Of a DNA stretch of 64,000 nt, positions 30,995 through 35,788 are shown in pieces (the stretch's first letter is position 1; each line of letters begins with the position of its first letter). This DNA comes from a bacterium (GTDB lineage Bacteria > Orphanbacterota > Orphanbacteria > Orphanbacterales > Orphanbacteraceae): the NCBI GenBank assembly GCA_025782575.1, contig JALGYY010000046.1, positions 62,001 through 126,000 on the forward strand, in the 5' to 3' direction. The translations under genes were made by a program, and so were the position numbers. Under the pieces are notes generated by a model, which ran no database searches, was not told the DNA's origin, and saw only the letters and a program-made list of their open reading frames with translations.

Positions 30995-32203
30995 GTGAAA
31001 CGACCATCCGGGCTGTGGCAAAAACCCCTCCCTTTGCGGCGCCGTCTTGTGATCGAAAAGGCCGAGCGCTTTCATCGCCTCTCATCCGACCCCATGGAAG
31101 AGCTGGCGCGGGTACGGAAGAGAGCGGAGAAGCGTGGCGTTCGTGTACTCGACTTTACCCGGCTCTCATCCGACATACCGATTCCGGCAACCGAGCGTTC
31201 ATGCGAAGAGGGGGCGATCAGCGGTCTGATTGCAGAGAAACTCGCTGAATCCAGGGGGCTTTCTCTGGATCCGGCGACCGAGATCCTACCCATTCCGCAT
31301 ATCGATGAAGCCTATCGTCTGCTGACACTGGCGTTCATCAACCCGGGGGACGTGGTCCTCCTACCCGATCCGGCAGACCCCGCCTATCGAACCGCCACGG
31401 TTCTGGCCGGGGGGTGGCCGGTAACGGTCCCGCTTCTTCAGGGGACGGGCTATCTTCCCGATCTGGGACGGATCGAAGCGGAGGCCGCCCTTCGGGCCAA
31501 GACCTTCTTTTTCTCCTATCCCCAATTTCCCACAGGGGCGGAAGCTCCTTCCGAGTTCTATGATGAGCTCATCGGGTTCGCCCGGCGGCACAACATTATC
31601 CTTGCGCATGACGCGACGCTGGCCGGATTCAGGCGGGGTGGCGAAACTCCCGCCGGGCTTCTCGATCATCCGGAAGGGAGAGAGATGGGCATCGAGTTTC
31701 ACACTCTTGCTCCGCTTCATGATACCGAAGGGTGGCGGCCGGGATTTCTGGCCGGAAATCGGGAGATTCTCTTTGCCGTCCGCTCCCTTTTACGTCTTTT
31801 GATGCCCCCCTCAGGAGGAGCGCGGTTCCGGTTCTACCAAAATGCACTCCTGATAGATGAATCAGAGAGAGTGGCGGCGGCCGAAATTTATCGGCAGCGG
31901 GGAGAGCATGTCAGGAACGGTCTCGCAAAGTGGGGCTGGGACGTCCCCGAACAGGCCGGTGAGCGGTTCCTCTGGGTTCGCGTCCCCTATCGGTATCATT
32001 CCATGCGGTTCGCGGCCATGCTGATCAGGCGAGCCGGGATCGCCGTCATTCCGGGTACCGCCTTCGGAGAGTTCGGTGACGAATCGATTCTGGTTTCACT
32101 CTCCGCCAGCGATACCTCGTTGGAGGTCGGTCTCGATCGGATCGGCCGCGCCCTCCCCCGCCGGCTCTTCCGCCGGCTTCAACGGGGGGAGGCATCGGAG
32201 TGA
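30995..32203 (+). CDS. Degenerate fold-type-I aminotransferase homologue lacking the PLP lysine
   Basis: 402 residues from GTG, aligning over its length with class I/II aminotransferases of the DapL/AspC type (L-N-P-G-D-V-V-like strand, G-W-R-x-G-F, C-terminal subdomain). Key residues are changed. The segment that normally reads H-S-L-S-K is H-T-L-A-P, so the Schiff-base lysine is Pro240. The N-N-P-T-G substrate loop is Q-F-P-T-G, with Phe178 in place of Asn. The usual C-terminal substrate Arg is Val or Ser (I-L-V-S-L-S). The glycine/serine phosphate-binding turn before the first helix is P-H-I-D-E. The D of the H-D-A motif remains. It cannot be a normal PLP enzyme; a regulatory or structural role is inferred. 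The stop overlaps folK (GTGA, 32200-32203). Confidence 0.82.
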   Translation: MKRPSGLWQKPLPLRRRLVIEKAERFHRLSSDPMEELARVRKRAEKRGVRVLDFTRLSSDIPIPATERSCEEGAISGLIAEKLAESRGLSLDPATEILPIPHIDEAYRLLTLAFINPGDVVLLPDPADPAYRTATVLAGGWPVTVPLLQGTGYLPDLGRIEAEAALRAKTFFFSYPQFPTGAEAPSEFYDELIGFARRHNIILAHDATLAGFRRGGETPAGLLDHPEGREMGIEFHTLAPLHDTEGWRPGFLAGNREILFAVRSLLRLLMPPSGGARFRFYQNALLIDESERVAAAEIYRQRGEHVRNGLAKWGWDVPEQAGERFLWVRVPYRYHSMRFAAMLIRRAGIAVIPGTAFGEFGDESILVSLSASDTSLEVGLDRIGRALPRRLFRRLQRGEASE

Positions 32204-32697
32204 CCACCGTCTATCTCGGCCTCGGCTCCAATCTGGGCGACCGCCGCCATCATCTTCGGAATTCGCTCGAGCGCCTCGAACAGAACGGGGTTGCCATCCA
32301 GGCGGTTTCCTCGGTCTACGAGACGGATCCGGTCGGCCCGGTGGCGGACCAGCCGGCATTTCTGAATTGCACGGTTCGTGCATCCTATGACGGGGCGGCA
32401 GAGGAGCTTCTCCGCACGGCGATGGCCATCGAAACAGCCATGGGGCGCACGAGAACTGTCGCCATGGGGCCCCGTACGATCGACATCGACATCCTGTACT
32501 TCGGCGATCATGTGATCGACGGGGCGCCGGATCTTATCGTGCCCCATCCGCGGATCCAGGAACGACGATTCGTCCTCATACCCATGACGGAACTTGATCC
32601 CGATCACCCACATCCATCTCTCGGTTCGACGCAGTCCGAGCTACTCGCCCGGACGACAGACAGGAGCGCGGTGCAACTCGTCGGGGAGGTCATCTGA
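32200..32697 (+). CDS. folK: 2-amino-4-hydroxy-6-hydroxymethyldihydropteridine pyrophosphokinase
   Basis: 165 residues from a GTG start inside the preceding gene's stop. It transfers pyrophosphate from ATP to 6-hydroxymethyl-dihydropterin in folate synthesis. Family marks are L-G-L-G-S-N-L-G-D near residue 5, G-P-R-T-I-D-I-D-I-L near 90 (the two metal-binding Asp) and P-H-P-R-I-Q-E-R-R-F-V-L. Folate feeds the hydroxymethyltransferase step of pantothenate synthesis (PanB uses 5,10-methylene-THF), which gives the operon some logic. Confidence 0.95.
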   Translation: MTTVYLGLGSNLGDRRHHLRNSLERLEQNGVAIQAVSSVYETDPVGPVADQPAFLNCTVRASYDGAAEELLRTAMAIETAMGRTRTVAMGPRTIDIDILYFGDHVIDGAPDLIVPHPRIQERRFVLIPMTELDPDHPHPSLGSTQSELLARTTDRSAVQLVGEVI

Positions 32698-32698
32698 C

Positions 32699-33346
32699 TT
32701 GCGGCATACCTACATCGTCGTGGAAGGGGTCATCGGCGTCGGGAAGACCACACTCTCCCGCGCTCTCGCCGGACGTCTGAACGCCGGGCTGAATCTGGAA
32801 GTGGTCGAGGAAAACCCATTTCTTCAGAAGTTCTATGACGACATCCGCTCTTATGCTTTTCAGACGCAGATCTTCTTCCTGCTGAGCCGGTATCGCCAGC
32901 AGCAGGAGATGAAGCAGCAATCGTTGTTTGCCGAGCGTATGATCAGCGACTATCTGTTCGCCAAGGATAGAATCTTCGCCAGCATCAATCTGACAGACGA
33001 TGAAATGCTGTTGTATGATCGTCTGATGGACGCGATTGAAGGGCAGATCCCACCCCCCGATGTGACCATTTATCTCCGTAGCAATACGGACCTCCTCGTT
33101 GATCGAATCCGAAAACGGGGTCGCTCATTCGAAAAAAACCTGACCAGGGACTATCTCGAAGTGCTTCAGGAGGCGTACAATTACTACTTCTCTCATTACA
33201 CCGACGGCCCGCTCATGATCGTGAATTCGAGCGAGGTCGATTTTCTCGGTAGCGAGAGCGATATCGGGGAGCTGGTCGAGCAATTGGATGCGCTGAAGAG
33301 CGGTGTGGCGAATTTCGTGCCCCGCCGCCGCGGGAGGTCAGGATGA
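32699..33346 (+). CDS. Deoxynucleoside kinase (dGK/dCK family)
   Basis: About 215 residues from a TTG at 32699 with GGAGG 9 bases upstream; a longer in-frame extension to 32594 lies inside folK and is not homologous. P-loop G-V-I-G-V-G-K-T-T-L at the start, L-F-A-E-R-M-I-S-D near 80 (the E-R pair of the deoxynucleoside kinase family) and a lid R-I-R-K-R-G-R-x-x-E. It phosphorylates a deoxynucleoside, probably a purine one, at the 5' position in salvage. The stop overlaps panB (ATGA). Confidence 0.9.
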   Translation: MRHTYIVVEGVIGVGKTTLSRALAGRLNAGLNLEVVEENPFLQKFYDDIRSYAFQTQIFFLLSRYRQQQEMKQQSLFAERMISDYLFAKDRIFASINLTDDEMLLYDRLMDAIEGQIPPPDVTIYLRSNTDLLVDRIRKRGRSFEKNLTRDYLEVLQEAYNYYFSHYTDGPLMIVNSSEVDFLGSESDIGELVEQLDALKSGVANFVPRRRGRSG

Positions 33347-34164
33347 GAAAAAGGAAGATGACGCCACGGAGCCTTTTCCTGATGAAGAAGCGGGGCGAGA
33401 AGATCGCCATGCTCACGGCCTACGATTATCCTACGGCTGACATCCAGAACAGTGCGGGGATCGACGCGATTCTCGTGGGTGACACGCTTGGTATGGTCGT
33501 CCTCGGCTACGAGACGACGTTGCCGGTTACGATCGACGATGTGATCCGCCACGCGGCGTCTGTCTGTCGTGCACAGCCTCGGGCACTTGTGATCGGCGAC
33601 ATGCCGTTTCTCTCCTATACGGTGAGCGTTGCCGACGCCGTAACGAATGCCGGCCGGCTCGTAAAAGAGGCGGGGGTGTCCGCTGTGAAGCTCGAAGGGG
33701 GGCGGGCCATGTTGCCGGTGGTGCGCGCCCTGGTGCGCGCTTCGATTCCTGTAATGGGTCACCTCGGCCTGACGCCCCAATCGATTCTCCGGTTCGGCGG
33801 TTACAAAGTTCAGGCCAAGGACAAGCGGGCGGCTGAGAGACTTCTTGAGGCGGCGAAGGCGCTCGAGGATGCCGGATGCTTCGCGATTGTTCTCGAGGCG
33901 ATTCCCGCCACGGTGGCGAAGGTCGTGACCGAAGCGCTTACGATTCCGACGATCGGCATCGGCGCCGGCCCCGATTGCGACGGCCAGGTTCTCGTCACGC
34001 ACGACATGCTCGGAATCTATGACGACTTCACCCCGAAATTCGTAAAGCGTTACGCGGAGATGCGCACCCTCATGAAGAAGTCGTTTGAGGAATACGTCGA
34101 GGATGTGAAGTCGAGCCGGTTTCCCGGGCCTGAGCACTGTTACGACGGAAACGGCGACGCTTGA
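33343..34164 (+). CDS. panB: 3-methyl-2-oxobutanoate hydroxymethyltransferase
   Basis: 273 residues, standard PanB length. It makes ketopantoate from 2-oxoisovalerate and methylene-tetrahydrofolate, the first pantothenate step. Visible motifs are M-L-T-A-Y-D-Y-P, the metal-site D-A-I-L-V-G-D-T-L-G-M, V-K-L-E-G-G and G-H-L-G-L-T-P-Q-S. The ATG overlaps the kinase stop and the stop overlaps panC (TTGA, 34161-34164). No panE or panD is visible in the window. Confidence 0.97.
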   Translation: MRKRKMTPRSLFLMKKRGEKIAMLTAYDYPTADIQNSAGIDAILVGDTLGMVVLGYETTLPVTIDDVIRHAASVCRAQPRALVIGDMPFLSYTVSVADAVTNAGRLVKEAGVSAVKLEGGRAMLPVVRALVRASIPVMGHLGLTPQSILRFGGYKVQAKDKRAAERLLEAAKALEDAGCFAIVLEAIPATVAKVVTEALTIPTIGIGAGPDCDGQVLVTHDMLGIYDDFTPKFVKRYAEMRTLMKKSFEEYVEDVKSSRFPGPEHCYDGNGDA

Positions 34165-35045
34165 CCCCTCCCATCCCCATCGCAAAGAGTGTGGCCGGTC
34201 TGCAGTCGGCCCTCGAGCCTTTACGAAGAGCCGGGAAACGGATCGGTTTTGTGCCTACGATGGGCGCACTTCATGAGGGGCATCTTTCCCTCCTGCAAGA
34301 AGCGAAACGGCAGTCTGATTTCGCCGTCCTGAGCGTCTTCGTGAACCCGGAGCAATTCGGCCCTTCCGAGGACTATGCGCGCTATCCACGAGATCTGAAG
34401 GCCGATGCGGCCCTTGCAGCCGGTGCCGGGGCGGATCACCTCTTTGCCCCGTCGCCGGAGACGGTTTATCCGAACGGTTTTTGCACGCGAGTCGAGGTGA
34501 CCGGGCTCTCGGACCGGCTTTGCGGCGCCCGGCGACCGGGTCACTTCCGCGGCGTAACAACGGTGGTCTGGAAGCTGCTTCAGATCGTCGACCCTGATCT
34601 GGTTTTTTTCGGAGCGAAAGACGCCCAGCAGGTAGTACTCATCCGAAAGATGATTCACGATCTGAACGGTCCATGGGAAGTCCGTTCGGTCGCCACGGTG
34701 CGGGAGGAAGATGGTCTGGCGAAGAGTTCCCGGAATCGTTATCTGGCCCCCCCGGACCGGGAGAGGGCGGCGACGATTCATCGTGCTCTGCGATCCGCTT
34801 TCCAGACGATCGTCCATGGCGAGCGAAGTGCCGGAACCGCGGAGAAAATCGCCGATGCTATCCTTAAAGGGATGGCCGTCGATGTCGAGCATCTTTCAAC
34901 TGTATCCCTTTCCGATCTCGAACCACTCGTGGAGCTTCAGGGAGATGTACTGCTTGCGGTGGCTGCCCGGTTCGGGGAGACGCGGCTCATCGATAATGTC
35001 TGTTTCCGGGTAGCCGGGGACGAAGTAGAGGAGATCCTACCCTGA
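34161..35045 (+). CDS. panC: Pantothenate synthetase (pantoate-beta-alanine ligase)
   Basis: 294 residues from a TTG that overlaps the panB stop. It joins pantoate and beta-alanine with ATP. Motifs: V-P-T-M-G-A-L-H-E-G-H-L-S-L (HIGH-type), V-N-P-x-Q-F-G, Y-P-R-D-L, K-D-A-Q-Q and a K-S-S-R-N near residue 190 corresponding to the KMSKS-like loop (usually M/L-S-S-R-N). The TTG start is supported only by the overlap and by the standard N-terminus. It is followed by the nucleotidyltransferase gene with a one-base overlap (TGATG). Confidence 0.95.
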   Translation: MTPPIPIAKSVAGLQSALEPLRRAGKRIGFVPTMGALHEGHLSLLQEAKRQSDFAVLSVFVNPEQFGPSEDYARYPRDLKADAALAAGAGADHLFAPSPETVYPNGFCTRVEVTGLSDRLCGARRPGHFRGVTTVVWKLLQIVDPDLVFFGAKDAQQVVLIRKMIHDLNGPWEVRSVATVREEDGLAKSSRNRYLAPPDRERAATIHRALRSAFQTIVHGERSAGTAEKIADAILKGMAVDVEHLSTVSLSDLEPLVELQGDVLLAVAARFGETRLIDNVCFRVAGDEVEEILP

Positions 35046-35788
35046 TGAACCGGACGGCGCTCATTCTGGCGGCGGGAGAGGGGACCCGCATGGAATCCTC
35101 ACTGCCCAAAGTGCTTCACATGCTCAAGGGTCGGCCCCTTCTCTCCTGGGTACTCGACGCGATTGACGAAACCGGGTTTGATCGGACGATCGTGGTCATC
35201 GGACACGAGGGAAAACGTGTGCAGGAAGCGGTCGCCAATCGGGGGGTCGAGTTCGTCTGGCAGCGGGAGCAGAAAGGGACGGGACATGCCGTGCTTCAGG
35301 CTGCGCCCCTCCTCGCCCGGCGTGGTGGATCGGTCGCGATTCTGAGTGGAGACGTCCCCCTCGTACAGGCGGAGACGCTCAATTCCCTGCTCGCCGAGCA
35401 TGAGGCGGCCGGTGCGAGTGCAACAGTCATGACCGCTGAGTTCGACGACCCTTCAGGATATGGCAGGATCATCCGCAGCACGGACGGAATGATCGATCGC
35501 ATTGTGGAGCAGAAAGATGCGAGCGAGACCGAGCGCCGGGTGAAAGAGATCAATTCCGGTACCTACTGCTTTGCCGTCAATCCTCTTTACGATGTCCTTC
35601 CGACTCTGGGAATGGACAATGCCGGCGGCGAGTATTACCTGACCGATGTGATCGCCAGGTTTCGAGAGCGGAGACTGGCCGTATACCCGTTCGTTGTCGA
35701 AGACGTCTGGGAGATTTTCGGGATCAATACAAAGAAACACTTAAGCCTCGTGGAGGAGCGCATCGCAGGAGAGGAAACGAATGGATAG
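35045..35788 (+). CDS. Nucleotidyltransferase (GlmU uridylyltransferase-domain homologue)
   Basis: 247 residues corresponding to the N-terminal pyrophosphorylase domain of GlmU: L-A-A-G-E-G-T-R-M with L-P-K-V-L, Q-K-G-T-G-H-A near 75, G-D-V-P-L near 100, G-Y-G-R-I near 140 and Y-Y-L-T-D near 198. GlmU makes UDP-GlcNAc and is normally about 450 residues, with a C-terminal left-handed helix acetyltransferase; that half is absent and the next gene starts inside this one. So it may act on GlcNAc-1-P or another sugar phosphate with the acetyltransferase elsewhere. It overlaps the HIT gene by 8 bases. Confidence 0.88.
   Translation: MNRTALILAAGEGTRMESSLPKVLHMLKGRPLLSWVLDAIDETGFDRTIVVIGHEGKRVQEAVANRGVEFVWQREQKGTGHAVLQAAPLLARRGGSVAILSGDVPLVQAETLNSLLAEHEAAGASATVMTAEFDDPSGYGRIIRSTDGMIDRIVEQKDASETERRVKEINSGTYCFAVNPLYDVLPTLGMDNAGGEYYLTDVIARFRERRLAVYPFVVEDVWEIFGINTKKHLSLVEERIAGEETNG

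Follow-up and report, generated by a model that had tools for sequence, protein, structure and literature searches.

Why would a gene of the class I/II aminotransferases keep an open reading frame once the lysine that holds its PLP cofactor has become a proline, and what is such a protein doing immediately before folK? The gene lies at 30995..32203 (+) of the window, i.e. the whole stretch of 64,000 nucleotides that was analysed, in a draft genome of 4.9 Mb (G000). Its reading frame runs intact from a GTG start at 30995 to a TGA ending at 32203 and encodes 402 aa, and Pfam and NCBIfam matches, a residue audit and an AlphaFold2 model together mark the product as a Lys-less pseudo-aminotransferase derived from DapL. 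The original prediction had described an intact frame that aligns with class I/II aminotransferases, and both statements hold, as the protein matches Pfam Aminotran_1_2 (PF00155) at 90.3 bits against a cut-off of 19.7 and could be aligned with BacF (6l1l) and 2x5d. In that structure alignment Pro240 (codon CCG, 31712..31714, +) falls on the Schiff-base lysine and Phe178 (31526..31528, +) on the asparagine of NNPTG, which contacts O3' of PLP, and an audit against 56 Lys-bearing relatives agrees with both of these predicted replacements.

Relative to the reference L013, whose position numbers the audit uses, the window protein shows K241 to P240, N178 to F, Y209 to L (L209), Y128 to D, S240 to A and R367 to L366, and the G102-S103-K104 turn of the phosphate cup, predicted to be changed, reads H-I-D (codons 102-104, 31298..31306, +). 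Leu366 (32090..32092, +) stands in place of the C-terminal arginine that binds the substrate carboxylate; the predicted loss of this arginine is correct for the window, but orthologue G001 and the second phylum described below keep it. The substrate/phosphate loop with Tyr66 is deleted in the window protein and in all Lys-to-Pro forms. Asp206, Arg248, Pro176 and Pro179 are retained, yet Asp206 and Arg248 are the only PLP contacts left among those audited, so the protein has neither the full set of cofactor contacts and the substrate arginine of DapL nor the Schiff-base lysine of the DapL motif SxSKxxxxxGWR, Pro240 being invariant in five orthologues. At 50 near-invariant positions, each conserved in at least 95% of the 56 Lys-bearing relatives, the window protein keeps 25 residues, whereas none of the Lys-bearing relatives falls below 87% and their median is 99% (leave-one-out). 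To judge from these residues, the window protein is very probably unable to transaminate.

The architecture of PLP fold type I is nevertheless predicted to be intact. An AlphaFold2 model, built from a 30-row alignment that included aminotransferases from IMG/VR contigs, shows a confident full-length aminotransferase fold (pLDDT 86.5, pTM 0.86), and the top PDB matches of this model in Foldseek were BacF 6l1o and 6l1n, at TM-scores near 0.8 (0.83 to 6l1o). BacF of Bacillus subtilis (6l1l/6l1n/6l1o) is the best match among solved structures in sequence (3.7e-40) as well as in fold; at about 25% identity, however, it differs from the window protein in having the lysine (SFSKTFNM) and normal site residues.

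The best NCBIfam models for the protein are those of DapL, LL-diaminopimelate aminotransferase: it scores 231 bits to NF006756 and 216 bits to TIGR03540, well short of the curated cut-offs of 507 and 593, respectively, and by score it is not a DapL. Its nearest relatives outside the phylum are DapL-type: the lysine is present in all 25 first fetched, folK adjoins in 14 of the 25, the Lys-bearing relatives tested against NCBIfam are named DapL, and a dapL with intact lysine stands upstream of folK in many phyla. Thus the window gene occupies the ancestral dapL-folK position, and it is the positional orthologue of dapL (EC 2.6.1.83), descended from dapL at the folK locus. It shares with DapL (TIGR03540 / NF006756) the fold, a full-length alignment and the place upstream of folK and dNK-panB-panC, but lacks the Schiff-base lysine, the phosphate cup, the Tyr66 loop, the ring-stacking tyrosine, the asparagine and the carboxylate arginine, and has instead a basic C-terminal tail, with scores far under the curated cut-offs.

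Downstream on the same strand follow folK (HPPK; 32200..32697, +), a deoxynucleoside kinase gene (dNK; 32699..33346, +, with TTG the likely start), panB for ketopantoate hydroxymethyltransferase (33343..34164, +), panC for pantoate-beta-alanine ligase (34161..35045, +) and a GlmU-type nucleotidyltransferase gene (35045..35788, +), assigned in part by synteny and encoding the first domain only. The GTGA overlap between the stop of the pseudoenzyme gene and the start of folK, taken by the original prediction as tight coupling, is real and conserved in G000, G001, G003 and G002. The gene probably heads the operon, although a co-directional DUF72 gene stops 99 bp before it; in G001 groES occupies the place that DUF72 has in the window. 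In both phyla the folK-panB-panC cluster invariably includes the dNK-family kinase. The nucleotidyltransferase, likewise conserved in the cluster of both phyla, has 247 aa, against about 450 aa in full-length GlmU, and consists of the uridyltransferase half only; the acetyltransferase half must then be encoded at another locus or be absent.

Among the seven species genomes sampled from the window's phylum (G000-G006, all of one family), orthologues were found in G001, G002, G003 and G005 at 44-50% identity, with Ala239-Pro240 invariant. Two alternatives had been named in the original prediction, that a different lysine forms the Schiff base or that orthologues upstream of folK retain the normal residue, and the orthologue alignment rejects both: the five orthologues have no conserved lysine anywhere, so that no other lysine can be a shared Schiff base, and loss of the lysine is common to all five proteins of this phylum and to all four of the second. 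Where contigs allow, the gene order is pseudo-DapL, folK, dNK, panB, panC, GlmU-type nucleotidyltransferase, HIT, LytR_C-like, tatA and SurA-like. In genus g5 (G004, G006) the cluster is otherwise the same but lacks the pseudoenzyme gene, groES being followed directly by folK (junction in L044 and L045), and as a tree of five neighbouring proteins places G004/G006 beside G003 (91/95), the gene was lost in g5 rather than gained elsewhere.

The second phylum was sampled by four species genomes (G142, G279, G386, G387), all of which encode a Lys-less protein at the same locus, followed by folB-folK-dNK-panB-panC. In G142 and G279 the Schiff-base lysine is replaced by proline and Arg248 by glutamine. 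In G386 and G387 it is replaced by methionine (ATG), a single base change from AAG, while most other site residues are kept, including Tyr66, Tyr128, Asn178, Tyr209, Arg249 and Arg367; this pair retains 40-42 of the 50 near-invariant positions and the Lys-to-Pro forms 20-27. In a tree of 67 proteins the nine that lack the lysine group together as a single clade (99/95) with the Lys-to-Met pair branching first, although long branches and odd composition could help to draw the nine together. A tree with the second phylum monophyletic scores below the best one for this protein but is not rejected (p-AU 0.225), which leaves room for more than one order of events within the clade. Two profile searches of nearly the same sample of 386 genomes, with weaker matches partly inspected, found Lys-less relatives in the second phylum only, all other inspected relatives carrying the lysine; two family motifs scanned over 84,980 species genomes recovered only three known relatives, and a scan of viral contigs gave no match. 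In the literature searched we found neither a report of a Lys-less DapL nor a bacterial PLP fold type I pseudoenzyme derived from DapL.

What DapL would have served in these bacteria is the diaminopimelate route to lysine. We found dapB, lysA, dapD, ddh or a DapL over the cut-off in none of the seven genomes of the window's phylum; since most of the genomes analysed are drafts and not fully complete (below 100%), such absences carry some risk. The dapB search also gave no match in the control genomes of Thermus, Deinobacterium and Sulfolobus, whose relatives make lysine via the aminoadipate route, thus a genome without dapB is not necessarily auxotrophic. The second phylum (G386:C263, G387:C76, L183, L184) has mixed markers, G386 and G387 having lysA over the cut-off without dapB, and G142 and G279 dapB without lysA. 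We infer that the diaminopimelate route was dropped, leaving DapL without substrate; only in the window's phylum does this stand on reasonably firm ground. Another, Lys-bearing DapL-like aminotransferase gene is present elsewhere in the genomes of G003, G004 and G006 (L035:1483-2658 (-), L036:1234-2409 (+), L037:1435-2613 (-)), scoring 431-435 bits to TIGR03540, under the cut-off, and adjoining an apparent polynucleotide phosphorylase gene; the remaining genomes of the phylum yielded no such gene.

That selection keeps the protein, as first suggested from the intact frame, is now supported by measurement. The dN/dS ratio was taken from a single congeneric pair, G002 and G005, where it is 0.115 (bootstrap 95% CI 0.078-0.165), similar to the 0.129 of the neighbouring flavin reductase-like gene; between genera dS approaches saturation. 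In this one pair the gene has evolved under purifying selection after loss of the lysine, as in a conserved pseudoenzyme, and selection supports its retention for a function at the protein level. By block (G002 numbering, small numbers in each), dN/dS is 0.056 for residues 1-70, 0.041 for 131-190 and 0.039 for 321-407, and constraint is weakest in residues 191-320 (0.18-0.27, likewise on small numbers per block), comprising the former active-site region and what follows. In class I aminotransferases the small domain is built by the two termini, thus selection seems to act on the face of the small domain more than on the old active site.

Besides what was lost, the nine Lys-less proteins share gains. 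His27, Arg43, Arg47, Arg132, Arg256 and Arg346 are fixed in all nine and variable in relatives, and each of the nine ends in a C-terminal tail 10-21 residues long, 3-7 of them Arg/Lys, against a median of 3 residues in relatives; in the window this basic tail (ALPRRLFRRLQRGEASE, 32150..32200, +) was delimited by the audit and is absent from most Lys-bearing relatives. Predicted pI is 8.7-10.5 in the nine, with a median of 6.3 in relatives and mostly 5-8 in neighbouring proteins (leaving out the dNK of the window, which had been translated out of frame), and the tail supplies most of the excess charge. The constrained termini, the fixed Arg/His residues and the tail suggest, with some uncertainty, that the present job of the protein is binding: the N-terminal 70 and C-terminal 80 residues, with His27, Arg43, Arg47, Arg346 and the tail, resemble a docking face for something acidic, perhaps a polyanion or one of the cluster's own enzymes, for instance FolK, which the conserved GTGA overlap makes the first candidate.

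Taking these data together, we consider it highly probable that a former dapL was stripped of catalysis and kept as a folded, very probably non-catalytic pseudoenzyme after the diaminopimelate route was abandoned. On this account dapL would have stood at its ancestral place before the fol/pan cluster when the route was given up, the cofactor lysine and most PLP contacts would then have been lost stepwise, and the scaffold, its gene coupled to folK, would have been retained for a role other than catalysis, probably binding or regulation. The graded series from Lys-to-Met forms with a nearly intact site to Lys-to-Pro forms with a stripped one is in line with it. Against it, genus g5 has the cluster without the gene, so the pseudoenzyme is not indispensable, and two PLP contacts, Asp206 and Arg248, survive in the window's family. 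These two residues, present in nine of nine and seven of nine Lys-less proteins, respectively, could also speak for a pocket rebuilt for lysine-independent chemistry or for non-covalent sensing of PLP, PMP or another ligand, and in the Lys-to-Met pair the retained site residues make non-covalent PLP binding plausible. The window protein, however, is without phosphate cup, ring-stacking tyrosine, O3' contacts and carboxylate arginine, and dN/dS is higher in the former active-site region (0.18-0.27) than at the termini (0.04-0.06), which leaves a re-purposed site improbable for the family.

PLP fold type I pseudoenzymes are few, and the standard case is LCB1. Like the window protein, LCB1/SPTLC1 of eukaryotic serine palmitoyltransferase is a protein of this fold kept without the PLP lysine, but it belongs to the alpha-oxoamine synthase subfamily of eukaryotes, has the active partner LCB2 and arose by an independent event. 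By analogy, our protein might modulate an active class I aminotransferase, the product of some other locus, by forming heterodimers with it, since Lys-bearing class I paralogues occur in every genome of the family, the superfamily fold is dimeric, with active sites of the DapL homodimer drawing on both monomers (PMC3102117), and LCB1 without its lysine has roles in catalysis and regulation (PMC3794620). Yet these paralogues are only 21-31% identical to the pseudoenzyme, and the Tyr66 loop, which reaches the active site of the partner in class I enzymes, is deleted in all Lys-to-Pro forms, making such a heterodimer possible but less likely; we regard it as unlikely, if slightly less so than a rebuilt pocket. 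Slow decay, in which the frame of a dying dapL survives mainly through translational coupling to folK, would fit the conserved GTGA overlap, the loss in g5 and a dN that between genera is among the highest of the cluster, but purifying selection at the amino-acid level (close to that of the flavin reductase-like neighbour), nine open frames in two phyla and newly fixed Arg/His positions make it the least probable of these explanations by some way.

The retained scaffold of a former dapL thus remains our preferred reading, and to the original prediction it adds DapL ancestry, intermediate Lys-to-Met forms, measured selection, a missing pathway and secondary loss in one genus. More tentatively, the nine may constitute a new family of PLP-fold proteins without catalysis, 'pseudo-DapL', that arose once before the two candidate phyla split and binds and regulates a folate/pantothenate enzyme of its own operon through the Arg/His face and basic tail. 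Annotation of such genes as aminotransferase or DapL would mislead metabolic reconstructions of candidate phyla. As ancestor, Lys-to-Met intermediate and stripped form are found at one locus in living lineages, it becomes directly testable which parts of an active site go first, and which later, in a fold that is itself retained.
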